Notes under the pieces: generated by a model | What the model was told of the DNA's origin: nothing | Database searches by the model: none | What the model saw: the letters and a program-made list of their open reading frames with translations, nothing else | Assembly: GCA_944381575.1 (NCBI GenBank) | Contig: CALWLS010000011.1 | Coordinates: 1-57,547, forward strand | From: an uncultured Lachnospiraceae bacterium | Lineage (GTDB): Bacteria > Bacillota > Clostridia > Lachnospirales > Lachnospiraceae | DNA length: 57,547 nucleotides | Direction: 5' to 3' | Made by a program: the position numbers and the translations under genes | In this document: positions 1,436-42,232 of the stretch, piece after piece | Layout of the letters: each line of letters begins with the position of its first letter | Position numbering within the stretch: the first letter of the stretch is position 1

Positions 1436-2389
1436 TTATAAACCGATCCAGACAAGCACTGCGCTGACGAGCGCAAGGCCGGCCACTACGGTCCAGTAAA
1501 ACTTGAACAGATGCTCTATCTTGAGCCTTGCGGTAATTGCGTGGGTCGTTGTTATGCACACCAGCATTACTGCTGTTGATATCAGTACAAAAACTATCAG
1601 ATCCGTAATGACAAAGCCTGTCCTTATCCCACCAAAGAAAAGGGCTGTGAATAAACCTGTCATTATGATCATTTTCATATTGATGCTGAGCTTAAAGAGC
1701 GCAAGGGGAGAACCGCTGTATTCCACAAGCGGGCCTTCGCATATCTCATTTTCGGCCTCTGCAACGTCAAATGGCTGTGTTCCTATCTCAGCCGGTATGA
1801 CCAGCAGCATTGCAACAGCGGCAGGTATCATGCTCCACTCTGTTATAAGCGAGCCGGCCTGGGCCTGATATGCCGAGACGATACCAAGATCAAATATGAG
1901 CATGTCTCCGCCCACCTTTTTTGCAACGGTAAGCAGTATTATTACAAGAGGAAGCTCATAGGCCATCATGGTAACCATTTCTCTTGAAATACCTATGCCT
2001 GCAAACGGTGATCCGGATGCTGCTCCGCCTACGATCAGCGCCGCTCCCGGTATAGTTATAAGATACAGTATGACTATCATGTCAGCTGCGCCGCCAATGG
2101 CCCTGAAGCCCAATATCGGTATAAAGAGCATCACTATGCATAAGCTCACGAAGCTGACCACCGGAGCGATCAGATAAGCCGCCCTGTTGGCAGTAGCCGG
2201 AATGATGGTCTCCTTTCCAAGGAGCTTGAAAAAGTCATATACCGGCTGGGCTACCGGAGGCCCGATACGTTTCTGCATGTGGGCTATCACCTTGCGGTCT
2301 ATGCCGGCCAGCAGCAGGCCCGCGGCTATGGTAAACAGAGCGCCCGGGAATATCAAAATATAAAACAGATATTGTAATATGATCATCAT
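1436..2389 (-). CDS. mbhM: Membrane-anchor subunit of Mbh-like hydrogenase (NuoH/MbhM-like)
   Basis: A 317 aa integral membrane protein with about eight hydrophobic helices, a homologue of NuoH, EchB and MbhM. These proteins anchor the peripheral arm and form the path joining the redox site to the pump. Family features include the early segment with DRKVIAHMQKRIGPP and a central acidic loop around PFDVAEAENEICEGPLVEYS, which is the conserved NuoH quinone-side loop (no quinone is expected here). GGAGGAG (2391-2397) lies just ahead; the second ATG (2386) has the better spacing. It sits between mbhH and mbhJ. Confidence 0.92.
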   Translation of the reverse strand: MMIILQYLFYILIFPGALFTIAAGLLLAGIDRKVIAHMQKRIGPPVAQPVYDFFKLLGKETIIPATANRAAYLIAPVVSFVSLCIVMLFIPILGFRAIGGAADMIVILYLITIPGAALIVGGAASGSPFAGIGISREMVTMMAYELPLVIILLTVAKKVGGDMLIFDLGIVSAYQAQAGSLITEWSMIPAAVAMLLVIPAEIGTQPFDVAEAENEICEGPLVEYSGSPLALFKLSINMKMIIMTGLFTALFFGGIRTGFVITDLIVFVLISTAVMLVCITTTHAITARLKIEHLFKFYWTVVAGLALVSAVLVWIGL

Positions 2390-2398
2390 ACTCCTCCA

Positions 2399-10366: not shown

Positions 10367-11262
10367 TAGAAGCAAAAGGCCTTACAAAAAAATACGGTGA
10401 TTTTACTGCCGTTGATAATATAGACCTTACCATAAGCGATTCTTCTCTCTTCGGGCTGGTAGGAACCAACGGAGCCGGAAAAAGTACTTTCCTTAAAATG
10501 GCTGCCGGAATATTGAAGCCTGACAGCGGCACCGTCACCATAGACGGCGATGAGGTCTATGAAAAGCCGAAGACCAAGGAAAGATTTTTTTACATCTCGG
10601 ACGACCAGTACTTTTTCTCCAACGCTGCGCCCGACGAGATAATGAACTTTTACGCTAACATATATCCGGAATTCGACAAGGCAAAATATGATAAGCTGCT
10701 TAATACCTTTGACCTTCCAAAAAACAGGAAGATCAACACCTACTCAAAGGGAATGAAAAAGCTCTTATCCATTGTTTACGGCCTTGCTTCCGGAACAAAA
10801 TACCTCTTCTGCGACGAGACCTTCGACGGACTGGATCCTGTTATGAGACAGGCGGTAAAAAGCCTGCTGGCCTTTGACATGTCCGACCGCGGGCTTACTC
10901 CTGTAGTAACATCCCATAACTTAAGGGAGCTTGAGGACATATGCGACCATGTAGGCCTGCTGCATAAGGGCGGGATACTTTTATCCAGGGATCTGGATGA
11001 TATGAAGCTCAACATCCATAAAGTACAGTTCGTGCTTCGCGAGGGCACCGGGGAAGAAAGCCTGAATGGGCTTGACATAATACTTAAGGAAAGCCGTGGA
11101 AGCCTTATCACCATCACGGTAAGGGGTTCCGAGGAAAGCATTGACGAACATTTCAAGGCTCTTGATCCGGTATATTACGAGATCATACCTCTGAGCCTTG
11201 AGGAAATATTTATCAGCGAAACGGAGGTTAAGGGATATGACATCAAGAAGCTCATTCTGTGA
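10363..11262 (+). CDS. ABC transporter ATPase of the YtrA-type operon
   Basis: A 299 aa nucleotide-binding subunit. Walker A is GTNGAGKST, the signature motif is the modified YSKGMKK, and Walker B is YLFCDETFDGLDP. A C-terminal domain of about 80 residues follows the ATPase core, as in drug/lantibiotic-type and YtrB-like ABC ATPases. It pairs with the permease that begins inside its 3' end. The exported compound is not evident; cell-envelope stress or peptide resistance is the usual theme of this family. Confidence 0.9.
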   Translation: MIEAKGLTKKYGDFTAVDNIDLTISDSSLFGLVGTNGAGKSTFLKMAAGILKPDSGTVTIDGDEVYEKPKTKERFFYISDDQYFFSNAAPDEIMNFYANIYPEFDKAKYDKLLNTFDLPKNRKINTYSKGMKKLLSIVYGLASGTKYLFCDETFDGLDPVMRQAVKSLLAFDMSDRGLTPVVTSHNLRELEDICDHVGLLHKGGILLSRDLDDMKLNIHKVQFVLREGTGEESLNGLDIILKESRGSLITITVRGSEESIDEHFKALDPVYYEIIPLSLEEIFISETEVKGYDIKKLIL

Positions 11263-26898: not shown

Positions 26899-29800
26899 AT
26901 GGCTCGAAAAATGAAGTCAATGGATGGCAATAATGCTGCCGCTCATGTTTCCTATGCATTCAGCGAAGTAGCAGCCATCTATCCTATCACACCGTCCAGC
27001 CCTATGGCCGATTTCGTAGACCAGTGGTCTGCAAACGGATTAAAGAACATCTTCGGCAATACCGTCAAGGTAGTGGAGATGCAGTCTGAAGGCGGAGCTG
27101 CCGGTGCAGTCCACGGTTCCTTGGGTTCAGGCGCACTTACGTCGACCTATACAGCTTCACAGGGTCTTCTTCTCATGATCCCTAACATGTACAAGATCGC
27201 CGGTGAGCAGCTTCCTTGCGTGTTCCATGTTTCAGCACGTACCGTAGCTACTCATTCCCTTAATATATTCGGCGATCAGTCAGACGTCATGGCCTGCCGC
27301 CAGACAGGTTTCGCCCTTCTGTGCGAAGGCAATGTACAGGAGGTCATGGATCTCTCTCCTGTGGCTCACCTTGCTGCCATTGAAGGAAAGGTTCCTTTCA
27401 TCAATTTCTTTGACGGATTCAGAACCAGCCATGAGATCCAGAAGATCGCCGTATGGGATTACGACGACTTAAAGGAAATGTGCAACATGGACGCCGTAAG
27501 GGAGTTCCGTGAGCATTCCTTAAACCCTGAGCATCCTCACATGCGCGGTTCCCACGAGAACGGAGATACATTCTTCCAGCACCGCGAGGCCTGCAACAAG
27601 TTCTATGAGGCGCTTCCTGACGTTGTCGAGAAGTACATGAACAAGATAAATGAGAAGCTCGGAACGGACTATAAGCTCTTCAACTACTACGGCGCTCCGG
27701 ACGCTGACCGTATCATCATCGCCATGGGCTCCATCTGCGATGTTGCTGAGGAGGTCATCGACTACCTCAACGCCCACGGTGAAAAGGTCGGCCTTATTAA
27801 GGTACGCCTCTATCGTCCTTTCAGGGCTGACAAGCTTCTTGAGGCCATACCTGAGACCGCAAAGTCCATCGCCGTACTTGACCGTACCAAGGAGCCGGGC
27901 TCCCAGGGCGAGCCTCTCTATATGGACGTAGTTACGGCTCTTGCCAACGCAGGCATCACCGACAGGAAGGTGATCGGCGGACGCTACGGACTTGGTTCCA
28001 AGGACACTCCTCCTTCATCAGTATTTGCAGTATACGATGAGCTTAAAAAGGACGCTCCTTTAAGACAGTTCACCATCGGAATCATAGATGACGTTACCAA
28101 TCTCTCCCTTAAGGAGGATAAGAACTGTCCTAATACCGCTGCTGAAGGAACCATCGAATGCAAGTTCTGGGGACTTGGCGGTGACGGAACCGTCGGAGCA
28201 AACAAGAACTCCATCAAGATCATCGGAGACCACACCGACAAGTATGTACAGGCATACTTCCAGTATGACTCAAAGAAGACCGGCGGCGTGACCATCTCCC
28301 ACCTGCGCTTCGGCGATAAGCCTATCCGCAGCCCATACTACATCAACAAGGCTGATTTCGTTGCCTGTCATAACCCTTCCTATATCACAAAGGGCTTCAA
28401 GATGGTCAACGACGTAAAGCCTGGCGGAATCTTCCTTATCAACTGCCAGTGGGATCTTGAGGAGCTCAGCCACCACCTTAAGGCTGACGCCAAGAGATAC
28501 ATAGCTCAGAACAACATTCAGGTTTATACGATAAACGCCATCGACCTCGCCATTGAGATCGGCATGGGCAAGCGCAATAATACCATACTTCAGTCCGCAT
28601 TCTTCTCTCTTGCAAAGGTAATGCCTGAGGCTGAGGCTATCGGATATATGAAGGAGGCAGCTACCCACTCCTACTTAAAGAAGGGTCAGGACGTGGTAGA
28701 CATGAACCACAAGGCCATCGACCTTGGAGCTACCGCATATAAGAAGATAGAGATCCCTGCCGACTGGGCAAACGCAGTTGACGAGGACAAGAAGGAAGCC
28801 CTCAGAGGAAAGGCAGAGCTCGTTAAGCAGGTCGAGGATCTCTTAGAGCCTATCGACCGCATGGACGGAGACAGTATCCCTGTATCCAAGTTCATGCCGC
28901 ATGTGGACGGCCAGTTTGAGCTTGGCGCTTCCGCATACGAAAAGAGAGGCGTTGCCGTAACTGTTCCTACCTGGGATCCTGCAAAGTGCGTACAGTGTAA
29001 CAACTGTTCCTATGTATGCCCTCACGCAACCATCAGGCCTTTCGCCCTTACCGATGAGGAAGCTGCAAAGGCACCGGCTGCCATCAAGATCGCAGATATC
29101 AAGGCTGGAAAGGGCAAGGGAGTATATAAGTACACCATGGCCATATCACCTCTTGACTGCATGGGCTGCGGAGTCTGCGTAAGCGTCTGCCCTGCAAAGG
29201 CAATAGAGATGGTACCTCAGGAGCAGGAGCTTCCTCAGCAGGAAGTATTCAACTACTGCGTATATGATACTGAGGAAAAGAAGGACATGCAGGATAACAC
29301 CGTAAAGGGAAGCCAGTTCAGGCAGCCGATGCTTGAGTTCTCAGGCTCCTGCGCAGGCTGCGCCGAGACAAGCTACGCACGTCTTGTGACACAGCTTTAC
29401 GGAGATCACATGTACATCTCCAATGCTACGGGCTGCTCATCCATCTGGGGAGGACCTGGTGCTCTCTCACCTTACTGCACTAACAAGGAGGGCCACGGAC
29501 CTGCATGGTGTAATTCCCTCTTTGAGGATAACGCCGAGCACGGACTTGGAATGTTCATCGGACAGAACACAATCCGCAAGAATCTTATCTCAAGGATCGA
29601 GGCTATGGCGGCAGGTGATACCACTGATGAGTTCAAGGCTGCAGCTAAGGAATATCTTGATACCGTAAATGACGGATCCTCAAACAGAGCCGCAGCTGAT
29701 AAGCTCATCGCCGTACTTGAAAAGAACGCCGCTGAGGGCTGCACCTGCTCTAAGGAGATCCTTGAGCAGAAGGAATATCTTGCAAAGAAATCCATGTGGA

Positions 29801-30429
29801 TGTTCGGCGGAGACGGCTGGGCTTACGATATCGGATACGGCGGACTTGATCATGTACTCGCATCACACGAGAATGTAAATATCTTCGTATTTGATACAGA
29901 GGTCTACTCCAACACCGGTGGACAGGCTTCCAAGGCTTCCAATATCGGACAGGTAGCTCAGTTTGCCGCATCCGGTAAGGAAGTAAGCAAGAAGAGCCTT
30001 TCAGAGATAGCAATGCAGTACGGTTATGTATATGTCGCTCAGGTAGCTATGGGCGCTAACCCTGCTCAGACCATCAAGGCCATAACCGAGGCTGAGGCCT
30101 ACGACGGACCATCTCTTATCATCGGCTACAGCCCTTGCGAGATGCACTCCATAAAGGGCGGCATGACCAACTGCCAGCTTGAGATGAAGAAAGCCGTTGA
30201 GTGCGGTTACTGGAACCTCTTCCGCTACAACCCTGCAGCTGAAAAGAAGTTTACTCTTGATTCAAAGGCTCCTGCCGGAGGATACAGAGAATTCCTTATG
30301 AATGAGGCCCGCTACTCAAGACTCACCCGTGAGTTCCCTGACAGGGCTGAGGAGCTCTTCAGCCGCAACGAGGAGGCAGCTAAGGCAAGATATGAGCATC
30401 TTCAGAAGCTCATCGATCTTTACGACTGA
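26899..30429 (+). CDS. nifJ: Pyruvate:ferredoxin (flavodoxin) oxidoreductase
   Basis: A 1176 aa single-chain PFOR. It oxidises pyruvate with CoA to acetyl-CoA and CO2 and reduces ferredoxin, the electron donor that the two hydrogenases would use. Domain order is full-length: N-terminal pyruvate-binding domain (YPITPSSPMAD), gamma domain near GGDGTVGANKNS, a two-cluster ferredoxin domain (CVQCNNCSYVCP and CMGCGVCVSVCP, about residues 695-780), the proximal cluster (CAGCAE) and the TPP domain (GDGWAYDIGYGGLDHV and NTGGQASKAS). A strong AAAGGAGG ribosome site precedes the ATG. Codon bias suggests high expression. Confidence 0.97.
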   Translation: MARKMKSMDGNNAAAHVSYAFSEVAAIYPITPSSPMADFVDQWSANGLKNIFGNTVKVVEMQSEGGAAGAVHGSLGSGALTSTYTASQGLLLMIPNMYKIAGEQLPCVFHVSARTVATHSLNIFGDQSDVMACRQTGFALLCEGNVQEVMDLSPVAHLAAIEGKVPFINFFDGFRTSHEIQKIAVWDYDDLKEMCNMDAVREFREHSLNPEHPHMRGSHENGDTFFQHREACNKFYEALPDVVEKYMNKINEKLGTDYKLFNYYGAPDADRIIIAMGSICDVAEEVIDYLNAHGEKVGLIKVRLYRPFRADKLLEAIPETAKSIAVLDRTKEPGSQGEPLYMDVVTALANAGITDRKVIGGRYGLGSKDTPPSSVFAVYDELKKDAPLRQFTIGIIDDVTNLSLKEDKNCPNTAAEGTIECKFWGLGGDGTVGANKNSIKIIGDHTDKYVQAYFQYDSKKTGGVTISHLRFGDKPIRSPYYINKADFVACHNPSYITKGFKMVNDVKPGGIFLINCQWDLEELSHHLKADAKRYIAQNNIQVYTINAIDLAIEIGMGKRNNTILQSAFFSLAKVMPEAEAIGYMKEAATHSYLKKGQDVVDMNHKAIDLGATAYKKIEIPADWANAVDEDKKEALRGKAELVKQVEDLLEPIDRMDGDSIPVSKFMPHVDGQFELGASAYEKRGVAVTVPTWDPAKCVQCNNCSYVCPHATIRPFALTDEEAAKAPAAIKIADIKAGKGKGVYKYTMAISPLDCMGCGVCVSVCPAKAIEMVPQEQELPQQEVFNYCVYDTEEKKDMQDNTVKGSQFRQPMLEFSGSCAGCAETSYARLVTQLYGDHMYISNATGCSSIWGGPGALSPYCTNKEGHGPAWCNSLFEDNAEHGLGMFIGQNTIRKNLISRIEAMAAGDTTDEFKAAAKEYLDTVNDGSSNRAAADKLIAVLEKNAAEGCTCSKEILEQKEYLAKKSMWMFGGDGWAYDIGYGGLDHVLASHENVNIFVFDTEVYSNTGGQASKASNIGQVAQFAASGKEVSKKSLSEIAMQYGYVYVAQVAMGANPAQTIKAITEAEAYDGPSLIIGYSPCEMHSIKGGMTNCQLEMKKAVECGYWNLFRYNPAAEKKFTLDSKAPAGGYREFLMNEARYSRLTREFPDRAEELFSRNEEAAKARYEHLQKLIDLYD

Positions 30430-30616: not shown

Positions 30617-31987
30617 TCAGAAATCCTTCTGCTTTACGTTAAAGAGCTTTGCTCCGTCAGGAAGCTCCACATCAAGCTTTCTTACCGCCTGGGATACGTT
30701 GATAAGGTGTATGTAGTCAACGTTACCGGCAAGGATGTTGTTACCCCAGGATCCGCAGCCTTCTGATACCGCAGGTGAAAGGGCGTTGGTCGAAGGTCCC
30801 CATGCGTCCGGCGTAGGCTGGTTGATGAGCACTCTTGCTACCGGTATCTTTTCAGCATAGTACTTGATATGCTCCTCATTATTCGAGAAGATACCTGCCG
30901 TATGGCCTATTCCGCCTGACTCCTCCATGTTCTGTATTGCCATGGAAACCGCTTCCTCAAACTTGTCATAGGTCTTGAGTATAACGATAGGTCCCATTAT
31001 CTCATGGCAGAGTATATCCTCCTTTCCCACTACCGGGGATACCAAAGCTATGATCTTTGTTTTTTCAGGAATATCGAAGCCGGCTGCCTTTGCTATGACA
31101 TCTGCGTCGCATCCTACAAGGTCAGGGTTGGACTTTCCGTTAGGAAGGAACAGTACCTCCCTGAACTTTGCCACATCCTCTGGCTTATCGAATATCACTA
31201 CCCCATGCTTCTTTAAAGTTTCATAGAACTTATCCGCAGTCTTTTCCGGATGCAGAAGGAGGTTATCTCCGTCGCAGAGTATTCCGTTATCCGATCCTAC
31301 TGCTGTTATGGTCTGCTCTGCTGCCGTGTCAAGGTCATAGTCATCGTCAAGGACTACCGGAGGGTTTCCAGGTCCAACTCCGTACGCCGGGGTTCCTGAT
31401 GAGTATGCCGCCTTTGTAAGTGACGACGCTCCCGTCGCAAGTACAAGGTCGCAGAGCGCCATGAGCTCCTGGCTCTTTGCAAGGGTAGGCTCCTCGATGA
31501 TCTGTATAAGATCCTCCGGAGCTCCCTCCTCCTTAAGGGCCTCCCTTATAAGATTGACCGTATGGGTGGATGTCTTCACCGCTCTTGGTGCAGGGCAGAC
31601 GATGACTGCGTTCTTACCCTTCATGGCATGCATGAAGTTGCCGAGAGGAGTTACCGTAGGGTTTGTTGCCGGCGTGATGCAGCCTATTACTCCCACCGGA
31701 TGAGCAATCTTGATAACGCCTGTCTCCTTATCATCCTCTATGATGCCTACAGATCTCTTATCCTTAAGGTAGTTCCAGAACTCAGTAGGGGTGTCGGTAT
31801 TCTTTCCTACCTTATCCTCCACGCAACCGAGTCTTGTCTCCTCTACCGCTTCCTTTGCAAGAGGCTTTGCATTTTCATAAATGACCCTTGCTGCCGCAAA
31901 GACGAGCTTATCCACGTCCTCCTGATTATAATCCATGATCTTTTCAAGGGCTGCCCTTGATCTGTCTATCATTTCCTGTACATTCAT
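30617..31987 (-). CDS. Acylating-type aldehyde dehydrogenase (sulfoacetaldehyde/succinate-semialdehyde/acetaldehyde DH class)
   Basis: A 456 aa member of the CoA-acylating aldehyde dehydrogenase group (EutE, AdhE N-half, SucD, SauS). These enzymes turn an aldehyde, CoA and NAD(P) into acyl-CoA. The candidate catalytic Cys is in DNGILCDGDN. The Asn/Pro region TPATNPTVTPLGN and GVGPGNPPVV are typical. It ends without the alcohol dehydrogenase half of AdhE, so it is not AdhE. I use the ATG at 31987, which has AGGAG 9 bases upstream; the next in-frame ATG at 31996 is too close to that site. It is the last gene of the riboswitch-controlled cassette. Substrate unknown. Confidence 0.85.
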   Translation of the reverse strand: MNVQEMIDRSRAALEKIMDYNQEDVDKLVFAAARVIYENAKPLAKEAVEETRLGCVEDKVGKNTDTPTEFWNYLKDKRSVGIIEDDKETGVIKIAHPVGVIGCITPATNPTVTPLGNFMHAMKGKNAVIVCPAPRAVKTSTHTVNLIREALKEEGAPEDLIQIIEEPTLAKSQELMALCDLVLATGASSLTKAAYSSGTPAYGVGPGNPPVVLDDDYDLDTAAEQTITAVGSDNGILCDGDNLLLHPEKTADKFYETLKKHGVVIFDKPEDVAKFREVLFLPNGKSNPDLVGCDADVIAKAAGFDIPEKTKIIALVSPVVGKEDILCHEIMGPIVILKTYDKFEEAVSMAIQNMEESGGIGHTAGIFSNNEEHIKYYAEKIPVARVLINQPTPDAWGPSTNALSPAVSEGCGSWGNNILAGNVDYIHLINVSQAVRKLDVELPDGAKLFNVKQKDF

Positions 31988-32015
31988 TTTTCTCATCTCC
32001 TGTTCATTATATAAA

Positions 32016-32170: not shown

Positions 32171-33442
32171 TCAGGCCTCATCTTCCTTATAATAAACGCC
32201 CTCTCGGATATCTATGGTGTACTTGATATCCAGTTCGTCAGCCCACTTTAAGTACTGCTCTACCTGTGCGTCATCCATCATATCCGAGGAAATGAGCCCC
32301 TTCTGGGTTATCATATCATTTACAAAAAGCTTTGTAAAAAGGAACGCTCCCTGGCCCGTAAGATACATTTCGCCGGTCATCTTAGCCTTCTTATAGGAAT
32401 CAATGATACCTGGAGCCTGTACGTGGAGATCTACCATTACGTCGCGTCCTTTCCTCTTTCCGTATGCCTCGCAGACAAAGGCGCCTCCGTCCTCTATGAT
32501 GCCCTCATCGATTATTGCCTTTATCTCCTCAGGATCCTTTGGAGCAGGAGGGATATGTGACATGATGAAATCAAACGGTACTATCTCCTGTCCATTGAAC
32601 ATCTCAGGCTCATGATGTAAGAGCCCTGCCTCCTTAAGAGGCTTTGCAAACTCTATGCCGTATCCGCCGTACTTGAAATATGCATTTTTGCAGCCCTTGA
32701 AATACTTTTCCCTGTTGAAGCCTATATAGGCAGGCTCGTCATGGGCATGCTCGACTAAGGTTACAGGCTTATAATCATACTCAGGCCATCTCTTTGTTAT
32801 AGGCCTTGAGAACGGCTTCGTCCTGATATGCTCGCCGTTTTCAAATGCATATGCATCCTCCTCCATGTCGCAGAGGGCAACTACCGGCGACCACCAGTAA
32901 GGAATAAATCTCTTGGATAAAACTCCTTCATATACATACATTGCTATCGTGTCGCACTCATCCAGCTCATTTACTGCCTTGCGGGCCATTACGCACATGA
33001 CGCCCGGAGCGGATCCTGTACCTATGAGAGCTGTCGTGCCGTTGGCTGCAAACTCCTTGCCGTAGGTTTCATACATGCACTTGATACCTGCAAGCCAGCG
33101 GTCGTATTCATCCACATCCATGACCTCGGTTATGTTCTCGCAGGCTGAAAGATCCTGATAACAGCATTTATTCTGAATAGCCGCATGGAGTACATTTACT
33201 CCAAAATCCAGAGGCATTACGTTAACTATGAGCTCACAGCCCTCAGCCGCCTTTACGATCTCATCCACATTTGCTGCGTTGACCTGTTTAGGCGTACCCT
33301 TCTTCATAAGCTTGCAGACAGCCTCTGCAGCAGCAAGATTATAATCGGCGCATACGACTTCCTGAATATTAGGCTCCTCATCTAACTTTCGGCAGATAGT
33401 TGATCCCTGGGCTCCGCACCCGCATACCATTACCTTTTTCAT
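32171..33442 (-). CDS. Saccharopine-dehydrogenase-family oxidoreductase
   Basis: A 423 aa NAD(P)-dependent enzyme. The Rossmann motif VCGCGAQGSTICRKL lies at the N-terminus; LIVNVMPLDFGVNVLHAAI and a middle GTGSAPGVMCVMARKAV block follow, as in saccharopine, lysine-6 and carboxynorspermidine dehydrogenases. Family members make or break secondary amines or oxidatively deaminate amino groups. The actual substrate is not predictable. Its neighbours, an amino-acid permease before and an acylating aldehyde dehydrogenase after, suggest it yields an aldehyde from an imported amine. A GGAGAC ribosome site is upstream. Confidence 0.8.
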   Translation of the reverse strand: MKKVMVCGCGAQGSTICRKLDEEPNIQEVVCADYNLAAAEAVCKLMKKGTPKQVNAANVDEIVKAAEGCELIVNVMPLDFGVNVLHAAIQNKCCYQDLSACENITEVMDVDEYDRWLAGIKCMYETYGKEFAANGTTALIGTGSAPGVMCVMARKAVNELDECDTIAMYVYEGVLSKRFIPYWWSPVVALCDMEEDAYAFENGEHIRTKPFSRPITKRWPEYDYKPVTLVEHAHDEPAYIGFNREKYFKGCKNAYFKYGGYGIEFAKPLKEAGLLHHEPEMFNGQEIVPFDFIMSHIPPAPKDPEEIKAIIDEGIIEDGGAFVCEAYGKRKGRDVMVDLHVQAPGIIDSYKKAKMTGEMYLTGQGAFLFTKLFVNDMITQKGLISSDMMDDAQVEQYLKWADELDIKYTIDIREGVYYKEDEA

Positions 33443-33583: not shown

Positions 33584-35278
33584 TTATGCGTGAAGCTCTC
33601 TTATCTCCTCATCAAGTATAAGCTTCCTTTTTGCTGCAAGCTCCTTAACCGCAGCTCCTTCCTTTTTCTTACCGTAGGCGTAGACCACAGCTCCAAGCAC
33701 CGTAAGGACTATGCCAAGCATAAGTATGAGCATCATCATTTCGCTGAAGCTGCTGAAGAGTCCCGTGCCGTACTCCTCAAGATAATATTCCGGTCCCCAT
33801 TCTCCTTCGTAGAAATATAAGAATACGTAACCTACAAGTGACATGATGCCGGTGAGAAGTATGTACATTCCTATGTCTATCATATCTCCCACTCCAAGGC
33901 CTGAGTGCTGGCTTAAAGGATAGATCACAGGATCCTTTTTAAAGTCACCCTTGTAAAGCTTCTTAAATGCCACATAGGCTATAAGACCTATGGCAAGTAC
34001 GATGTATCCGGTGATGAAATAGTCTGTACCGTTTGCATATATCGCAAATATACATATCGCTATAACGCAGGCTGAAAGACCTATAAGTCCGGCGTTTCCT
34101 CCCGGCATAACCGTAAGGCCGAGCTTCTTTCTGCCCTCTACCGGATACATTTTCCTGAGCTTAAGCACGCAGGCTACCATAAGAAGGTAGAGGTAAAGCT
34201 GTATAGGCGTGGAGGCCATTACCAGTGCTGCGAAATCAAACTGGCAGCAGATGATGGTAAATATTGCGAGGGCTATTATTGATACCGTAGGTATTCCCCT
34301 CTTATCCACCTTGCAGAGGAACTTAGGGAACATGTCATCATCCGCCATTACGAAGAATGCTCTTGAGCCGTGGGCTATGTATGAACAGAACATTCCCATG
34401 TTGGAAATGATAGCGATGATAACGAACAGCGTTCCTGCCCATCCTCCGACATACTGTATAAGAACATCGGCATATCCCACATATCCCGCGGTCTGATCCG
34501 TGGACCAGGAGCTCCACTGACCTATGGCTGCCAGCGCCGCAAGTGTAGGGAGTATGTAGGTAAGGGCAACCAGCGGCTGGGATATCCTCATGGCCCTTGG
34601 AATGATCTGCGGATCCTCCAGCTCTTCGGCCATGTTGGACATGCATTCATATCCGCAGTACATCCATATGATTATCGCTATGCCGCCTCCGATGGAGCTG
34701 AACATTCCTTCGTCAGGATTGTAGAAAGGAGTGACCGGATTATAGTTCCAGTTCATAAATCCTACTATCGTGACAAGGGCAAATGCCGCAAATACCAGTA
34801 TATTAAGTACTGTTTCCAGTCTCTCAAGGGAGGTAAGTCCGATCAGGTTTACTATGGTGAATATCACGACTACCGCCACCTTGATCATAAACTCCTGAGT
34901 TGGATCAAGGGCGATTATCTTTGCCGCGTATCCGGCGATCAGAGCCGTATACTGCGCCTGGCAGATCCAGGTGGTAAGTCCTGACCACCAGCCTACCTGC
35001 CAGCCCCAGAACTCTCCAAAGGCAGCTCTTCCCCAGGCGTAAACTCCTCCTTCATTAGGAAGTATGGAACCTAACTCTCCCACCATCTCGCAAAGTGGAA
35101 ATGACCATATAAGCGGGAAAATGATCAGCATTGCAAGAGTAAGTCCAGGTCCGCTGGCGGAAATCGCCTCTTCAATACCAAAAGCGCCGGCGCATACAAA
35201 TGAGTAAATAAGCGCTACAACACCGAGGGTCGACATTTTGGTTTTCTGTAGTGCCCCGGTTCCCCTCTCTTCACTCAT
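33584..35278 (-). CDS. APC-superfamily amino acid permease
   Basis: A 564 aa transporter with about 12 to 14 helices. The APC opening FVCAGAFGIEEAISASGPGLT matches the conserved first helix with the unwound GIEE region; AELxG-like and Gly-rich elements follow. A glutamate/aspartate-type loop and a hydrophilic C-terminus (KKKEGAAVKELAAKRKLILDEE) end the chain. The start at 35278 (MSEERGTG) has AAAGGAGG 8 bases away. First gene of the cassette, controlled by the gcvT-like leader. Substrate is inferred to be an amino acid or amine, perhaps glycine or a relative. Confidence 0.88.
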   Translation of the reverse strand: MSEERGTGALQKTKMSTLGVVALIYSFVCAGAFGIEEAISASGPGLTLAMLIIFPLIWSFPLCEMVGELGSILPNEGGVYAWGRAAFGEFWGWQVGWWSGLTTWICQAQYTALIAGYAAKIIALDPTQEFMIKVAVVVIFTIVNLIGLTSLERLETVLNILVFAAFALVTIVGFMNWNYNPVTPFYNPDEGMFSSIGGGIAIIIWMYCGYECMSNMAEELEDPQIIPRAMRISQPLVALTYILPTLAALAAIGQWSSWSTDQTAGYVGYADVLIQYVGGWAGTLFVIIAIISNMGMFCSYIAHGSRAFFVMADDDMFPKFLCKVDKRGIPTVSIIALAIFTIICCQFDFAALVMASTPIQLYLYLLMVACVLKLRKMYPVEGRKKLGLTVMPGGNAGLIGLSACVIAICIFAIYANGTDYFITGYIVLAIGLIAYVAFKKLYKGDFKKDPVIYPLSQHSGLGVGDMIDIGMYILLTGIMSLVGYVFLYFYEGEWGPEYYLEEYGTGLFSSFSEMMMLILMLGIVLTVLGAVVYAYGKKKEGAAVKELAAKRKLILDEEIRELHA

Positions 35279-35373: not shown

Positions 35374-35422
35374 AAAAAAGGACAGATTAACCTTGATCCT
35401 GCGATCAAAAGTCTCTGTCCTT
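35374..35422 (-). terminator. Riboswitch-type intrinsic terminator ahead of the permease gene
   Basis: On the minus strand AAGGACAGA pairs with TCTGTCCTT, with an inner stem TTGATC/GATCAA, followed by TTTTTT. The 5' arm overlaps the conserved AGG(N)AAGGACAGAG end of the aptamer, which is the usual arrangement of a glycine riboswitch expression platform. About 95 bases before the permease ATG. Confidence 0.88.
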
Positions 35423-35588
35423 CTGCCTGTTGGTTATAGCCTCGTAGGCGCCGGTAACTGTTCCGGTCTCTCCAAAGATAAGTCCGATAGCCTTATTTTT
35501 GCCTGACATTTTCAATACGGCTTTCGCTCTTACCGTACCTTCACGCTTCGGCCCGCAATGTGTCTCAGACTATCATCATCCTCTGTAT
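35411..35588 (-). ncRNA. Tandem gcvT (glycine) riboswitch-like leader
   Basis: On the minus strand aptamer 1 (about 35488-35588) has an 8-bp P1 (GATAGTCT/AGGCTATC), GACA/TGTC as P2, the GGCCGAAGC core, a TACGG/CCGTA P3b-like stem and TGTCAGGCAAAAA. Aptamer 2 (about 35411-35485) has TTTGGAGAGACCGG, an AACAGTTA loop closed by CCGG, then AACAGGCAGAAGGACAGAG. These are the hallmark elements of the glycine riboswitch, placed before a terminator. Aptamer 2 departs from consensus: the GCCGAAGG core reads GCCTACGAGG, and the CTCTC partner of GGAGAG is missing. Glycine is the expected ligand, but the variation makes that uncertain. Confidence 0.78.
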
Positions 35589-35622
35589 TTGATTATCATT
35601 TTGCTTTTGCCTTACGCTTTTC

Positions 35623-35651
35623 ATGTTAAACTCTGATATATCTTAAGTCAA
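35623..35651 (-). promoter_or_regulatory. Promoter of the riboswitch-controlled permease operon
   Basis: TTGACT (35646-35651 read on minus) and TAACAT (35623-35628) with a 17-base spacer; the start point falls about 30 bases before the first aptamer. Confidence 0.8.
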
Positions 35652-35813
35652 CACCCTTTTGTCATTTCGTACAGTCTTTAAGAACTTTTTTAAATTTTAT
35701 TATCTATTCTGCACAATGGCATTTATGATTTATTTTCATATATGTGGTGAAATGATATTTTTGTGATAAAATTTGTATTGTACCAGAAGCTTTTTAAAAG
35801 AGGCATTACAGTT

Positions 35814-37205
35814 ATGGACGGCATGCTTAAAATGTCAAAAAAACATAATAAAAACATTTCCACTGACGATAAGGAACGGATATTTAGGGATCTTCCGGTG
35901 CCTGCTGCGCTTAAGGCCATGATAATCCCCGCTGCAGTAAGCCAGATCATAGTTCTTATCTACAATATGGCGGATACCTTTTATGTAGGACAGGTAAATG
36001 ATCCCTATATGGTGGCTGCAACTTCCCTTATACTTCCGCTCTTTAACATAACCTTATGTCTTGCAGGACTTGCAGGTACCGGAGGCGGCGCCCTCATATC
36101 CTCTCTTTTGGGTCAGGACAGGCCTGAGGAAGCAAAAAGGGTAGCTTCCTTTTCCATATGGCTCGCAGTTCTGATCGCCGCGGTTTTTTCCATTTCCATC
36201 GGCATTTTCAATAAACCTCTTTTAAACCTCCTCGGAGCCAGCGATAAAACCTTCACCTTCGCGCGCCAGTACGCCATGTGCGTCCTTGTGGCCGGAGGCA
36301 TTCCCACCGTGCTTTCCAATGTTCTATCCAATCTGATAAGGAGCGTTGGCAGATCAAAGGAGGCCGGTGCCGGCATAATCCTCGGCGGAGTCCTCAACAT
36401 TATCCTTGACCCCATCTTCATGTTTATCATACTTCCCGACGGGCTTGAGGTCTTTGGAGCAGGTCTTGCAACCTGCATATCCAATATCATCGCCTGCATT
36501 TATTTTCTGATCGTCCTGTATGGAATGGGCAGCAACCGCATCATAAGCTTCGATATCGGAGGCGGACTCCCGCTTAAACAGAATATGCTCATGGTCTTTG
36601 CCATCGGCGTGCCTTCAGCCGTCGCCACTTTTCTCTTCGACCTGGACTATGTGATAATAGATAAGCTTATGGTCTCCTATCACGATCTCGCATTAGCTGC
36701 CATAGGCATAGTATTGAAAGTCGAGCGTTTTCCTCTTAATGTCGGCATAGGCATCTGTCAGGGTATGCTTCCACTTGTTGCTTTCAGCTATGCCTCAGGC
36801 AATAAGAAAAGGATGAACGACCTTATCCGGCTCTCCCGTCTTACAGGGCTTATTATCGCAGCCGTAAGCATACTGCTCTACGAGATATTCGCAGCGCAGT
36901 TTATAAGGATATTCATAGCCGATCCCGAAACCGTCGCCATGGCAGAGGATTTCTTAAGGATAAGGGTCCTTGCCACGCCTTTTATGTTTTTAAGCTTCTT
37001 TACGGTATATCTGTTCCAGGCCTTTAAGATGGGCGACAAGGCCCTTATTTCCGGTGTGACAAGATGGCTCGTGCTGAATATCCCGATGCTGTTCATACTG
37101 AATGCGGTTTTTGGCATGTACGGCATCGTGGCCTCCCAGGTCACCGCTGATATCCTGAACACCATAATATGCTTTATGATGCTTAAGAAGTACGCTCCGT
37201 CATAG
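35814..37205 (+). CDS. MATE-family multidrug/toxin exporter
   Basis: A 463 aa MATE transporter with twelve helices. The motif NMADTFYVGQV in the first helices is diagnostic. I take the ATG at 35814 with AGAGG upstream; the frame reaches back to 35763 without a ribosome site. It is a cation-driven exporter of unknown drug or metabolite. Its last 23 bases overlap the 3' end of echF on the opposite strand. Confidence 0.92.
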   Translation: MDGMLKMSKKHNKNISTDDKERIFRDLPVPAALKAMIIPAAVSQIIVLIYNMADTFYVGQVNDPYMVAATSLILPLFNITLCLAGLAGTGGGALISSLLGQDRPEEAKRVASFSIWLAVLIAAVFSISIGIFNKPLLNLLGASDKTFTFARQYAMCVLVAGGIPTVLSNVLSNLIRSVGRSKEAGAGIILGGVLNIILDPIFMFIILPDGLEVFGAGLATCISNIIACIYFLIVLYGMGSNRIISFDIGGGLPLKQNMLMVFAIGVPSAVATFLFDLDYVIIDKLMVSYHDLALAAIGIVLKVERFPLNVGIGICQGMLPLVAFSYASGNKKRMNDLIRLSRLTGLIIAAVSILLYEIFAAQFIRIFIADPETVAMAEDFLRIRVLATPFMFLSFFTVYLFQAFKMGDKALISGVTRWLVLNIPMLFILNAVFGMYGIVASQVTADILNTIICFMMLKKYAPS

Positions 37206-37560
37206 ACTTTGTAAATGTCTCCGTTATCTTTTCGGTTCCCGGCTCAGTATATCCCGGTACTATCTCAAGACATTTCTTAGGACATACATTGGTACAGTTG
37301 CCGCACTGTATGCAGTCGAACCTGTTTATTGCCCAGGTCCCCGCGGCACGGTCCACCTTGATGGCCCTTGGAGGGCAGTTCCTCTCACAGAGCCCGCAGC
37401 TTATGCACTCGTCGATCCTTATTACGATATGTCCCCTCATGCGCTCCGGAAATTTTGCCGGCTCAAAGGGATATTTGGTAGTTGCCGGATCAGAAAACAG
37501 ATTTTTCATTACTGTACCGGCAAACGGAAGTATCTTCCACTTAAATGGCTTTTGTCCCAT
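37183..37560 (-). CDS. echF: Ech hydrogenase ferredoxin-type subunit EchF
   Basis: A 125 aa NuoI-like subunit with two [4Fe-4S] motifs (CISCGLCERNCPP near residue 50 and CIQCGNCTNVCPK near 79) that receive electrons from ferredoxin. The ATG at 37560 follows AGAGAGG at good spacing; an upstream start would overlap echE. The C-terminus converges on and overlaps the MATE gene. Two clusters is the normal count, unlike the six in the other operon. Confidence 0.93.
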   Translation of the reverse strand: MGQKPFKWKILPFAGTVMKNLFSDPATTKYPFEPAKFPERMRGHIVIRIDECISCGLCERNCPPRAIKVDRAAGTWAINRFDCIQCGNCTNVCPKKCLEIVPGYTEPGTEKITETFTKSMTERTS

Positions 37561-37565
37561 ACCTC

Positions 37566-38648
37566 TCACCTCTCTGTACAGCTGATGCAAGGGTCGATCG
37601 TAAGTATAAGCAGCGCTACGTCGGCCAGCTGGCAGCCCTTAATAAGCTCCACCATCGGAGGGATATTGGAGGTGGTAGGGGTACGCAGCCTGAAACGGTC
37701 AATATACTTTGTGCCGTTGGCCTTTACATAATATATCGCCTCACCCCTCGGCTGCTCTATGCGCATGAAGTGCTCTCCCTCCGGATTACCCTTTACCGGA
37801 ACACTTATGTCTCCCTCAGGTATCTTTCCTATAGCCTGTCTTATAAGATCAAAGGACTGGAAAAGCTCGTTAATACGGACGCGGCACCTTGCAAAAGAGT
37901 CTCCATCCGTATCGATCACAGGCTCAAGATCCAGTTCACCGTATGCAGCATAGCCGGTCTTTCTTGCGTCATAGGATACGCCGGAAGCCCTGAGCATAGG
38001 CCCTACGGCTCCCATAACCTTAGCCTCATCAGCCGTAAGGACTCCAAGCCCGTGGAGACGCGTACCCACCGTATAGTCATTTAAAAATGTCTCCGTGACA
38101 GGCCTTATCTCCTTTTCCATGTCATTTACGGTATTCAGGATATTATTAAGCATGGACTGATCCATGTCCTTAAGGACTCCGCCCACACAGTTTACCGAAA
38201 ATATTACTCTTCCTCCCGTGGTGGCGTCGAACATATCAAGTATCTGCTCTCTTAATTTCCAGCTCTCCATAAACAGGCTCTCAAAGCCGAGAGCGTCCGC
38301 AAGGAGTCCGAGCCAAAGAAGATGGCTGTGGACACGGCTCATCTCCATCCAGATGGTCCTTAAATAATTACCTCTCCTTGGCACCTCGATATTCATTATG
38401 TTCTCGAGACATTCACAGTATCCCATGCCGTGCCCAAAGCTGCATATGCCGCAGACACGCTCAGCCACATATACATATTCCTTGAAATCCTTTGTCTCAA
38501 CAAGCTTTTCAAGGCCCCTGTGTATAAAACCGATATTTGGCACCGCACCCACAACAGTCTCATCATCAAGGATCAGATCAAGATGCACAGGCTCCGGAAG
38601 GACCGGATGCTGCGGCCCGAAGGGAATGGTGCTGAATTCTTTTACCAT
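37566..38648 (-). CDS. echE: Ech hydrogenase large catalytic subunit EchE
   Basis: A 360 aa NiFe subunit. L1 motif ERVCGICSFGH (Cys66, Cys69) and L2 motif DPCISC (Cys354, Cys357) are complete, so the Ni-Fe site should be intact. As in the other large subunit the chain ends C-T-E-R-stop, leaving no C-terminal extension to be cleaved. Start is the ATG at 38648 with GGGGTGAGG ahead; a GTG at 38657 is less likely. Similar length and plan to mbhL but a clearly different sequence. Confidence 0.95.
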   Translation of the reverse strand: MVKEFSTIPFGPQHPVLPEPVHLDLILDDETVVGAVPNIGFIHRGLEKLVETKDFKEYVYVAERVCGICSFGHGMGYCECLENIMNIEVPRRGNYLRTIWMEMSRVHSHLLWLGLLADALGFESLFMESWKLREQILDMFDATTGGRVIFSVNCVGGVLKDMDQSMLNNILNTVNDMEKEIRPVTETFLNDYTVGTRLHGLGVLTADEAKVMGAVGPMLRASGVSYDARKTGYAAYGELDLEPVIDTDGDSFARCRVRINELFQSFDLIRQAIGKIPEGDISVPVKGNPEGEHFMRIEQPRGEAIYYVKANGTKYIDRFRLRTPTTSNIPPMVELIKGCQLADVALLILTIDPCISCTER

Positions 38649-38653
38649 AGTCC

Positions 38654-39001
38654 TCACCCCTTTTCCTTAAACGGCGTTTCTCTGGATATGCGGTACAGCT
38701 TTCCCTTAAAATCCAGATCTATGTTTTCTATCTTTACGCCGAAGAGCTCGGCAGCCTCATTTTCCTGAAGGTAAGCCGTATGGAATACCTGGGTTATGCT
38801 TGGAACGGTCTCGTCTTCTGCGACCTTAAGGCGCAGCGTCCTCATATCATAATCGCGTCCAAAGGAGTAGCTGAGCTCATATCCCCCGTCGACACGCACC
38901 GCACATATCTGTATCACATGCCAGCCCTCCATTTTGAAACGGATGACCTCCTGCATGAACTTATCCATGGATATCTCTTCGATAGTGTTCAAAAACTCCA
39001 T
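38654..39001 (-). CDS. echD: Ech hydrogenase NuoC-like subunit EchD
   Basis: A 115 aa soluble subunit with the NuoC signature around LQENEAAELFGVKIENIDLDF. It binds EchE in the peripheral arm. A GGAGGGATG ribosome site precedes the ATG. Shorter than complex I NuoC, as usual for Ech. Confidence 0.9.
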   Translation of the reverse strand: MEFLNTIEEISMDKFMQEVIRFKMEGWHVIQICAVRVDGGYELSYSFGRDYDMRTLRLKVAEDETVPSITQVFHTAYLQENEAAELFGVKIENIDLDFKGKLYRISRETPFKEKG

Positions 39002-39016
39002 TGAAGCATCCCTCCT

Positions 39017-39463
39017 TTAAGCCCCGGCTTTTTTCCTGGCCGCATAGGCTTCACGTTTTTTCTCAAGTATCTCAAGGGCCTTTACGACTCCGTCTATTAT
39101 GGATTCCGGCCTTGCGGCGCATCCCGGCACATACACATCCACCGGTATAACGGTATCCACTCCGCCCTTAATGTTATAGCACTCCTTAAATACTCCTCCG
39201 GTACATGCACAGATCCCTACGGCTACGACCACCTTTGGATCCGGCATCTGGGAATATATCTGCTTTATAACGTTCTCACTCTGATGGTTCACTCCTCCGG
39301 TAACCATAAGTATGTCTGCCTGGAATGGGTCTCCCGTATTGATTATGCCGAATCTCTCCACGTCATATTTCGGCGTTGTGCAGGCCAGCACCTCTATATC
39401 GCATCCGTTGCAGCTGCTTCCGTCATAATGTAAAAGCCACGGTGATTTTGCAAGTTTTGCCAT
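39017..39463 (-). CDS. echC: Ech hydrogenase small subunit EchC
   Basis: A 148 aa NuoB-like protein with cysteines in SCNGCDIEV, CTTPKYD, VGICACTGG and PGCAARPES to hold the proximal [4Fe-4S] cluster. GGAGGG ribosome site 7 bases before the ATG. Counterpart of mbhJ, same length. Confidence 0.95.
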   Translation of the reverse strand: MAKLAKSPWLLHYDGSSCNGCDIEVLACTTPKYDVERFGIINTGDPFQADILMVTGGVNHQSENVIKQIYSQMPDPKVVVAVGICACTGGVFKECYNIKGGVDTVIPVDVYVPGCAARPESIIDGVVKALEILEKKREAYAARKKAGA

Positions 39464-39476
39464 TTCAACGCCCTCC

Positions 39477-40340
39477 TTACTGAATGATCATGAGGATCAG
39501 TCCGTTAAGCCCTCCTGCCACGAGGGTAACGGCCCAGCATCCGCCAAGGAGCTTATCCCATTTAACTCTGGCGCTTACATTATCTATAAATACCTCTATA
39601 AAAAATGCAATTAGACAGAATAAAACCGCTATTATCCAGCTCCACCAGGTGCTGTTTGCGAAAAACAGCGCTACTATGCCCAAAAGCATTACCATTTCAT
39701 AATACTCCGTAATGGTCATTATGGCGAAGGTTGTTCCCGACATTTCAGTGGTAAGCCCCTTTACCACCTCCTGATGAGCATGATGGCTCGTAGAAAGGTC
39801 AAAAGGCGATTTGCGGAGCTTTACCCCGGTTATGAATAAAAAGCCGATAAGAAATCCCGGCATGGCTGCTATGGCGCTTATGTCTCCTGATACTATCTCA
39901 CTGACCTGAAACGAACCGGTGGCAAGATAAAATCCCACCGCAAGTAAAAGAAGCATCGGTTCACACGCCATGAGCTGGACCATTTCCCTGTTGGCTCCTA
40001 TGCTTGAATAAGGCGAGGAGTCGCTCGATGCTGCCATGACAAGGAACATATCGGCAGTTGATACGAGGAACAGGCACATAAGTATGTCGGCACCGGCAAA
40101 CAGCATGGATCCTGCAATTACAAAAAACACAAGATAGCTTAAATTAAGCAGCATCTGCACATTGTTGACGGCTATCATCTCCTTGGAAAAAAGCTTTGAG
40201 AGATCATAAAACGGCTGCAGTATCGGCGGTCCCTGCCTTCCCTGCATTCGCGCGCTTATGCGGCGGTCAAGCCCGTCCAAAAGCCCGCCGATGACCGGAG
40301 CCAGTAAAATATACAGTATAACTCTTACGGCATCCATCAC
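39477..40340 (-). CDS. echB: Ech hydrogenase membrane subunit EchB
   Basis: A 287 aa NuoH-like membrane protein with about eight helices and the loop LRKSPFDLSTSHHAHQEVVKG, the Ech version of the NuoH loop. Anchors the redox arm to the antiporter-like EchA. Overlaps echA by 4 bases. Confidence 0.93.
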   Translation of the reverse strand: MMDAVRVILYILLAPVIGGLLDGLDRRISARMQGRQGPPILQPFYDLSKLFSKEMIAVNNVQMLLNLSYLVFFVIAGSMLFAGADILMCLFLVSTADMFLVMAASSDSSPYSSIGANREMVQLMACEPMLLLLAVGFYLATGSFQVSEIVSGDISAIAAMPGFLIGFLFITGVKLRKSPFDLSTSHHAHQEVVKGLTTEMSGTTFAIMTITEYYEMVMLLGIVALFFANSTWWSWIIAVLFCLIAFFIEVFIDNVSARVKWDKLLGGCWAVTLVAGGLNGLILMIIQ

Positions 40341-42232
40341 ATTACGCCTCCTATTATCATTGTCATGATCACTATAAGCACTCCGGCGGCAACAACAGTC
40401 GAAGGCCCCATGAGCTTATCCATACCGAACTGCGGTTTCATATACCAGTTCCTTAAGTACAGGTGCTCAGGCTCTCCAAAGCTGTTTATGAAATAAGTAT
40501 TATCTCCCTTATTTGCTCCGCTCATATATATAGGCACATACTGCCGGCGCGCATTATCAGTAAGAACGAACATCACCGCAGGCACGAATATGATGGATAT
40601 GAGCATTATGGCCATGGTCGTCAGCACTCCCATAGAAAGCACTTCATGGGCATTGCCGAACAATGTCTTTACTATAGGCTCAACTATGTGGAAGGAGATC
40701 CACGGCAGCAAGAGACATAAAAGCAGCATTATTGCCGCATGCATATACATGGAGATATACTGATCGACGTGAGTCTTATCAGTGACAGGCTCGTTTGTCC
40801 TGTGCATGGAAATGAGCTTACTCAGCCACTTCGTCCAGTAAAGCATGGTGGAGGCGCTTCCAAAGGCAACAAATACCACAAGCAGATAGTTATGAGCGTC
40901 AATAAAGGATTTGAGCGCTACCCATTTTGAAATGAGCATGCCGAAAGGCGCAAGATACATTCCCGCTATACCTATCCCCACTATATATGTAAGCTTTGGA
41001 AGCCTCAGGATAAGACCGTGCATCGCCTCAACGTCACGGGTGCCTAAGGAGTTCTCAATGGAGCCCACAGCCTGGAAAAGCATGGATTTTGCCACGGAGT
41101 GGAATATCATCAGCAGTATTGCTGCCCAGATGGTCTCCTCTACTCCGATACCGGTACAGGCTACTATCAGTCCAAGGTTGGAAATGGTGGAAAAAGCAAG
41201 TATCTTTTTCCCGTCCGTCTGGGCTATGGCCATCATGCTGGCAACGATGAAGGTAAATCCTCCAATAAAGGATACGAGCTGGCCCGAAAGAGATCCGCTT
41301 AAGGCCGGAGCAAGCCTGATCAGAAGATAGACTCCAGCCTTTACCATGGTAGCGCTGTGTAAAAGAGCGCTGGAAGGCGTCGGTGCCACCATGGCTCCAA
41401 GCAGCCAGGATGAAAACGGAAGCTGGGCAGACTTAATCAATGCTGCGAAGGCAAGCATGGCTACCGGCAGCGCAGCCTTCAGCATTACGGCGTCCGTAAG
41501 CTGTACCGTGCCCAGTTCAAGCGACATATATATGATGGCTATGGCAAAGCCAAGGCCGCCAAGCAGATTCATCCACAGGGCCCTGAAGCAGTTTATTATG
41601 GCCTCCTCCGTACGTGTGTATCCGATAAGCAGGAAAGAAACCACGCTTGTTATCTCCCAGAAGAAATACATCCATATAAGGTTTTCCGAGAGAACAAGGC
41701 CGAACATTGCCGCAAGGAATAAAAACAGCATGGACAGAAAGAATCCCGTCCTGTCCTTATATTCCTTGTGGTGCTCATGATATGCCTTCATGTAGCCTAC
41801 AGCATAAATGCATATCATGCCGCCTACAAACGCAGCTATCATTGAGAGCAGCAGGCTAAGTCCGTCCACCCTCATATGCATGCCCCCATGGGCCGGATGG
41901 ACAAGCTCCGCCCATATGACTCCGAAGGTCTGGGCAACGGATAAAAAAATGACCGGATATTTACGGTAGCGGATGCTGAGCACGGTGACAACAGCCATGA
42001 GCACAAGATCTCCGGCGATCATCAGATGATCGGCAAGCTCCGTCTCGGCATACAAGGTCACGGTGGTTCCGCCGCCTGCGCTTATCCAGCCAGCAAGCAG
42101 TATCACTGCAAATATCATCATTCCGGCAGACGCGGTATAGACGACCGCTGCCCTGAGCCTGTGGCTCGGCATTACCGGAAGGATCAGTGCGGCCAGTGCC
42201 GGCCACAGGATCAAAATAGGTATTATTCCCAT
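40337..42232 (-). CDS. echA: Ech hydrogenase antiporter-like subunit EchA
   Basis: A 631 aa NuoL-type pump subunit with 14 to 16 helices: FFWEITSVVSFLLIGY, KSAQLPFSSWLLGAMVAPTPSSALLHSATMVKAG and STISNLGLI are the conserved antiporter elements. Expected to move H+ or Na+ as H2 is evolved. First gene of the ech operon, with AAGGAG 9 bases from the ATG. Confidence 0.95.
   Translation of the reverse strand: MGIIPILILWPALAALILPVMPSHRLRAAVVYTASAGMMIFAVILLAGWISAGGGTTVTLYAETELADHLMIAGDLVLMAVVTVLSIRYRKYPVIFLSVAQTFGVIWAELVHPAHGGMHMRVDGLSLLLSMIAAFVGGMICIYAVGYMKAYHEHHKEYKDRTGFFLSMLFLFLAAMFGLVLSENLIWMYFFWEITSVVSFLLIGYTRTEEAIINCFRALWMNLLGGLGFAIAIIYMSLELGTVQLTDAVMLKAALPVAMLAFAALIKSAQLPFSSWLLGAMVAPTPSSALLHSATMVKAGVYLLIRLAPALSGSLSGQLVSFIGGFTFIVASMMAIAQTDGKKILAFSTISNLGLIVACTGIGVEETIWAAILLMIFHSVAKSMLFQAVGSIENSLGTRDVEAMHGLILRLPKLTYIVGIGIAGMYLAPFGMLISKWVALKSFIDAHNYLLVVFVAFGSASTMLYWTKWLSKLISMHRTNEPVTDKTHVDQYISMYMHAAIMLLLCLLLPWISFHIVEPIVKTLFGNAHEVLSMGVLTTMAIMLISIIFVPAVMFVLTDNARRQYVPIYMSGANKGDNTYFINSFGEPEHLYLRNWYMKPQFGMDKLMGPSTVVAAGVLIVIMTMIIGGVM

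Follow-up and report, generated by a model that had tools for sequence, protein, structure and literature searches.

Among the known systems close to the RNA analyzed here are the glycine riboswitches. In a cryo-EM preprint on the V. cholerae riboswitch, glycine lies beside A68, G69, A70-U80 and U81 in aptamer 1, and beside A175, G176, G177-C209 and U210 in aptamer 2 (PMC12060979). According to the same preprint, an earlier crystal structure had the equivalent of U81 in contact with the carboxylate; its own preference is for Mg2+ at the glycine carboxylate. Glycine riboswitches also occur as singlets that have a ‘ghost’ aptamer for a partner (PMC6944388, PMC9481103). According to a passage of PMC9481103 that does not name RF03166, glycine variants with a mutated core do not accept glycine, and their ligand has probably changed; such variants are mostly metagenomic (PMC6944388). 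Both sources cite Weinberg 2017 for the glycine variants, among which RF03166 may be. Searches of the open literature by family name, accession and related phrases found no ligand for RF03166, and the part of PMC12452182 that mentions the family does so solely for its score threshold. A precedent for an aptamer re-tooled towards a polyamine is the spermidine riboswitch, a SAM riboswitch variant (PMC10853860), whose RNA fold is unrelated to the one described below.

The window is the whole stretch of DNA that was analyzed, 57,547 nucleotides from an uncultured Lachnospiraceae bacterium. The leader RNA and the genes behind it are listed in Table 1.

Table 1. Features of the leader RNA and of the downstream genes in the window.
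Feature	Positions	Strand	Evidence
Promoter-like pair TTGACT-17-TAACAT	35623..35651	-	9/12 consensus letters
Tandem aptamer, RF03166	35411..35583	-	covariance model, 130.6 bits; gathering score 110
Aptamer-1 core, GCCGAAGC (35552-35545) and AAUGUCA (35510-35504)	35504..35552	-	sequence, motif counts
Aptamer 2, variant type, cores UACGAGG (35446-35440) and ACCAAC (35434-35429)	35413..35477	-	alignment, pair counts
Intrinsic terminator, 5' arm with GGACAGAG (aptamer-2 P1 3' strand)	35374..35423	-	folding
APC-family permease	33584..35278	-	Pfam AA_permease_2, 154.1 bits; cut-off 27
Saccharopine/carboxyspermidine-dehydrogenase-like enzyme, type F22	32171..33442	-	Pfam Sacchrp_dh_NADP, 46.4; cut-off 25.1
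Aldehyde dehydrogenase, nearest acylating types (AdhE N-half, SauS, EutE)	30617..31996	-	Pfam Aldedh, 101; cut-off 23

The match to RF03166 (glycine-GGAnGA) has an E value of 1.1e-27 and spans model positions 1-177 of 177. The window's RNA is a member of this already catalogued, rare orphan riboswitch family. An earlier note, made from the sequence alone, had placed two aptamers in series correctly on the minus strand and had proposed a check with the glycine riboswitch model. In that check RF00504, the ordinary glycine family, reached 30.7 bits at 35405-35485, under its cut-off of 32, and a search of the genome with RF00504 found no separate hit for the window's aptamer 1. Two further RF00504 matches, both over the cut-off, lie at other places of the same genome and precede an AGCS-type symporter gene and glyA (gene names by eye). 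The window's RNA resembles RF00504 in its tandem plan, in GCCGAAG in aptamer 1, in the GGAGAG and GGCAAAAGGACAGAG elements and in a terminator that overlaps P1. It differs in its score, in the pocket letters of aptamer 2, in a P3b shrunk to a small loop and in the genes that follow. The promoter that the earlier note called good does exist as a hexamer pair, but a consensus scan found two promoter-like sites where 1.6 were expected, so the pair is not beyond chance; that it works as a promoter is plausible. A MATE-family transporter gene (35763-37205, plus strand; TIGR00797, 160.6 over 147.4) is transcribed away from the leader, and MATE-like genes are also found downstream of the RNA at two other loci, L152 and L199, as judged by eye and by a 24% match.

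Relatives of the RNA were collected by scanning genome_contigs, in which each of 84,980 species is represented by a single genome, for AACCAACNGGCANAAGGACA. Of the 42 loci obtained, 34 were recognized by eye as this RNA; the remaining eight (L042, L046, L047, L053, L054, L065, L071 and L074) were dropped by eye, as the letters upstream held no aptamer. One locus, L055, coincides with L031, a copy in genome G023. The pattern loci, the window, two more G023 copies and a second copy in genome G489 make 38 distinct RNAs. A covariance-model search of relatives of three genomes added six RNAs with the variant core (G802, G1037, G1081, G923 and twice G993), 44 in total. The Rfam model gave an RF03166 match over the cut-off in each of the 33 genomes to which it was applied. 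Among the hosts are Anaerovorax odorimutans, Sinanaerobacter chloroacetimidivorans, Terrisporobacter mayombei, Peptacetobacter hominis, Neobittarella massiliensis, Faecalicatena contorta and one Bacillus record, and many others are metagenome assemblies.

The RF03166 score alone is no proof of a changed ligand, since three RNAs with ordinary glycine cores (L204, L205 and L206, from G1111, G1072 and G1103) reached 111.8-116.6 bits; the cut-off of 110 does not cleanly separate variant from ordinary cores. Within the window's genus, two of 25 genomes, the window's included, exceeded the cut-off. Weaker hits were readable at 41 of 42 loci (L096 was left out), and 40 of the 41 had two glycine-type cores. 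A scan with RF03166 was rejected as a sampling tool because 391 sampled genomes of the class gave the window only, and the weaker hits, among those checked, were mostly ordinary glycine riboswitches.

The second-aptamer core of RF03166 (CC-N-A-C-G-N-GG ... AACCAAC) is present in the window. Its 3' part, ACCAAC, occurs in 38/38 RNAs, as does the 5' core N-A-[CU]-G-N-G-G, and ACCAAC was also read by eye in the six RNAs found later, which makes 44/44. AACCAAC was part of the bait, so a fair test must use the ten RNAs found without it (the window, L032, L033, L153 and the six covariance-model finds), and all ten keep ACCAAC. Pairing was examined in an alignment of 38 RNAs, 36 of them distinct, with the six later RNAs left out. 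In the helices of aptamer 2, 99.7% of pair cells are standard, compared with 25-42% when the partners are slid by 1-3 columns. Covariation, in the form of both-sided changes, is seen in all five pairs of P2, and one pair of P3 shows a single compensatory change, from G-C to A-U.

The earlier note had remarked that aptamer 2 lacks the CTCTC partner strand. We agree: CUCUC is absent and so is the long P3b of glycine aptamers, a feature that would suit a decayed glycine aptamer, which was one of the two options left by that note. Decay is hardly credible, however, given an identical core in 44 relatives, near-perfect pairing, covariation in P2 and a compensated pair in P3. Judged by these alignments, aptamer 2 is the conserved, class-defining half of RF03166 and no relic; the other option of the note, a variant riboswitch, fits. 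The type-1 singlet glycine riboswitch with a 3' ghost (PMC6944388) also combines an ordinary-looking aptamer with a shortened 3' partner. A ghost is, however, a partner reduced to the P1 region, whereas aptamer 2 of the window retains P1, P2 and P3 together with an invariant core, and its conservation exceeds that of aptamer 1. In one relative, from Marinisporobacter (L155, 2567-2652), an extra hairpin stands in the P3 loop of aptamer 2, at the site of the ordinary long P3b. It may be a clue to the origin of the variant.

The altered letters were then compared with the ligand pocket, using V. cholerae numbers from the cryo-EM preprint, which we placed ourselves on its printed sequence by means of the labelled letters. 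Ordinary aptamers, taken from 41 tandem RNAs, read NNU[CU]UCA in 81 of 82 cases, with Y-U at two pocket positions. In the variant aptamer 2, the same positions, 209-210, are AA in 38/38. In aptamer 1, G80-A81 is found in 29/38 (28 ACUGACA and one AAUGACA), while six RNAs that precede a CDF-like gene have A80-U81. Relative to ordinary aptamers, both pocket positions of aptamer 1 are changed in 29 of the 38 RNAs and one in seven, among them the window; two could not be read. The core of aptamer 1 is unrecognizable in two G023 copies (L032 and L033), where aptamer 2 is kept. Hence both halves are usually altered at the same two places. A change of ligand in the variant is likely.

The window has AA in aptamer 2 and GU in aptamer 1, so that neither half shows the Y-U of RF00504. 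Its aptamer 1 is of the same kind as in RF03166 but reads AAUGUCA, compared with ACUGACA in 28/38 relatives, and is among the least altered of the collected RNAs. The earlier note took it to be canonical: this stands for the GCCGAAG core, while the 3' core departs from NNU[CU]UCA at one pocket position. In our numbering it has G80-U81 with C70; the C70-G80 pair takes the place of the A-U or G-C pair of glycine aptamers. An aptamer so little altered, with U81 kept, leaves room for residual glycine binding.

The 50-nt hairpin and U-run downstream of the aptamers fold at -22.7 kcal/mol (z -5.83), a stability equalled by 0/200 shuffles; a simple consensus scan for terminators did not list them. 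The overlap between this terminator and the conserved end of the aptamer, pointed out by the earlier note, is borne out. The 3' strand of aptamer-2 P1 lies inside the terminator 5' arm in 32/38 RNAs, a count that leaves out the six later finds, and the layout is lacking in L143, L149, L161, L162, L171 and L073. In three of these (L143, L162 and L073, from Faecalicatena and Dorea) the frame of a saccharopine-dehydrogenase-like (SDH-like) enzyme begins 22-24 bases past the aptamer, and translational control is possible there. The B. subtilis gcvT riboswitch, an ON switch, likewise has the P1 3' strand in a terminator arm (PMC5666159). A P1 strand placed in this way leads one to expect an ON switch, and we infer ON logic for the window. 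That ordinary glycine riboswitches before transporter genes are described as OFF switches (PMC11477304) counts against it.

The cassette announced by the earlier note, an amino acid permease, a saccharopine-dehydrogenase-like enzyme and an acylating aldehyde dehydrogenase outside the gcv and AGCS sets, was confirmed with Pfam and NCBIfam, the third enzyme as an aldehyde dehydrogenase nearest to acylating types. None of these genes is a glycine-metabolism or AGCS target. The longest frame of the permease starts at 35332; the start in Table 1 was set by eye and follows an AAGGAGG-like site. The permease reached no NCBIfam cut-off, and its closest solved relatives are AdiC-type, weakly. The F22 enzyme scores 29.6 with the C-terminal Pfam model, just under 31, and 59.4 with NF043000 (cut-off 800), and it matches carboxyspermidine dehydrogenase (PDB 8deb) at E 7.8e-12. 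The aldehyde dehydrogenase gives NCBIfam scores of 390.7, 333.3 and 331.5 bits, all short of the cut-offs. The same succession of permease, F22 and aldehyde dehydrogenase genes is seen again in L031 and L188, both cut by contig ends. In G993 (L203, 13406-14956, plus strand), a gene beside an RF03166 RNA and divergent from it encodes a permease with 35% identity to that of the window.

Among the 38 RNAs, the first gene encodes an SDH-like enzyme of type F0 (28 RNAs), a CDF-like transporter (six), an APC permease (two) or, as named by eye, a YtcJ-like amidohydrolase or a type-B-like carboxylesterase (one each). At L158 and L159, F0 is overlapped by longer frames but present. The six later RNAs are followed by F0 (two), F22 (three) or a permease and then F22 (one). 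In all, 36/44 RNAs have an SDH-like gene in first or second place behind them; the other eight precede the CDF-like transporter (six), the amidohydrolase and the carboxylesterase. The association also holds in the opposite direction: in the 34 RNA-bearing genomes, 28 matches to F0 reach 60% identity or more, of which 27 lie directly behind the RNA and the remaining one is a contig-edge fragment. A search of 391 genomes of the class at E 1e-60, with the RNA-bearing genomes as positive control, detected no F0. F0 is tied to the RF03166 RNA. The patterns used detected no F0 relatives in viral contigs. A search for F22 outside the class, at E 1e-40 in 250 genomes of the family, gave the window's own genome only, so that RNA-free neighbourhoods could not reveal the pathway.

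The RF03166 copies before an exported carboxylesterase and an exported amidohydrolase (L032, 13457-13641, and L033, 13382-13553; by eye) belong to G023, a genome of the window's genus. In G489, L152 has a relative of the carboxylesterase (10992-11999) just upstream of the RNA and one of the amidohydrolase (2113-3732) in the operon. Hence both families recur near the RNA.

Carboxyspermidine dehydrogenase, for which a His-Glu-Glu triad is described (PMC10413350), belongs to the same protein family. The triad is kept in 24/24 aligned F0 proteins, and F22 has His-Asp-Glu in 6/6. Both types differ from that enzyme in an Asp at the end of beta-2, present in 24/24 aligned F0 and in F22. Such an Asp favours NAD over NADP, which suggests an oxidative role. 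The decarboxylase partner of the biosynthetic enzyme, nspC, exceeds its cut-off in 3/34 genomes only, and the SDH that adjoins it is 28-30% identical to F0; a biosynthetic carboxyspermidine dehydrogenase was on these grounds rejected as the identity of F0 for most genomes.

One of the 44 RNAs, L149, heads a run with polyamine genes. On the same strand the RNA is followed by F0, PotD-like, PII-like, PotA, PotB, PotC, SDH2 and putrescine aminotransferase genes (PII, PotB and PotC named by eye). PotA exceeded one curated model (392.2 over 355.6) and missed another (448.9, cut-off 482), as did the aminotransferase (682.8 over 612; 493.2, cut-off 658.65), while the PotD-like protein was far under its cut-off (238.8, cut-off 582). 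A related unit, PotD-PII-PotA-PotB-PotC-SDH2 with an aldehyde dehydrogenase, is found in G507. By eye, the neighbours of SDH paralogues in 11 regions include no consistent partner except in L181, where Pot genes and SDH2 occur together with an aldehyde dehydrogenase. When the CDF-like protein of L152 was aligned to FieF, two of the four metal ligands were found replaced, with Tyr and Ser for what we take to be Asp45 and His153. A relative of this protein in L043 gives only weak alignments to known CDF proteins.

The explanation that we propose, and hold to be about evenly balanced, is that the window's leader is a transcriptional ON switch of RF03166 responding to a non-glycine amine, possibly polyamine-like, whose import, oxidation and CoA activation it would induce. 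In the absence of ligand, GGACAGAG would fold into the terminator and transcription would stop. Upon binding, the tandem aptamer would hold P1, and RNA polymerase would read into the permease, dehydrogenase and aldehyde dehydrogenase genes. The permease would import the amine, the SDH-like enzyme would oxidize it with NAD to an aldehyde, and the aldehyde dehydrogenase would convert the latter into an acyl-CoA. An import gene, an SDH-like enzyme and an acylating-type dehydrogenase, together with a cation-type transporter and one polyamine-type operon elsewhere, point to a small organic amine other than glycine. The two separate glycine riboswitches of the genome support this reading.

Glycine analogues are chemically nearest to glycine, and instead of a cationic amine the ligand might be a zwitterion, for example beta-alanine, GABA or taurine. 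A semialdehyde would then be the product of the SDH-like enzyme, and a CoA ester that of the acylating dehydrogenase; the second-best match of the aldehyde dehydrogenase is indeed the acylating sulfoacetaldehyde dehydrogenase SauS (333 bits, cut-off 600). The CDF-like transporter and the Pot and putrescine aminotransferase genes suit cations better, however, and the U that contacts the carboxylate in the earlier crystal structure (PMC12060979) is A in aptamer 2 in 38/38. We consider a zwitterion unlikely.

A sensor in which aptamer 1 still binds glycine and the modified aptamer 2 serves as its structural partner is less probable still. The window's aptamer 1, with GCCGAAG, U81 and a C70-G80 pair, would permit it, and the ghost-bearing singlets offer a parallel; yet aptamer 2 is the constant half, aptamer 1 is unrecognizable in two G023 copies, none of the genes is a glycine gene, and two other RF00504 matches lie elsewhere in the genome. 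Very unlikely, in turn, is a two-input switch in the window and a few relatives, with glycine in aptamer 1 and another ligand in aptamer 2. U81 is kept in the window, in the six CDF-type RNAs and, by eye, in one of the two G993 RNAs (G993a), but the idea would fail for the class, as G80-A81 is found in 28-29 of the 38 aptamers 1, and the genes suggest no second input.

Within the preferred reading of a non-glycine amine, the polyamine identity of the ligand is the weakest step. A bolder version, which we put forward tentatively and regard as somewhat unlikely, is that RF03166 is a polyamine or diamine riboswitch that arose from a tandem glycine riboswitch by parallel pocket changes. It would induce an undescribed anaerobic amine pathway made of import, NAD-dependent oxidation by the SDH-like enzyme and a CoA-acylating dehydrogenase, with cation-type efflux in other species.

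The RNA family was already known; the ligand hypothesis, the regulon and the pocket comparison are added here. The gene association narrows the candidate ligands and enzymes to a short list that can be tested at the bench, and with the regulon and the pocket comparison the orphan RNA can be framed as a testable case of an amine riboswitch. Should the ligand prove to be an amine that lacks a carboxylate, RF03166 would show that an amino acid aptamer can be re-tooled by few pocket changes, and would point to an uncharacterized amine-degrading pathway in anaerobes.

Other genes of the window were identified mostly by eye. A pyruvate:ferredoxin-oxidoreductase-like gene is found at 26899-30429 on the plus strand, and a membrane-hydrogenase-like or complex-I-like cluster, in which only the NuoI-like protein was identified otherwise, occupies 37183-42232 on the minus strand.
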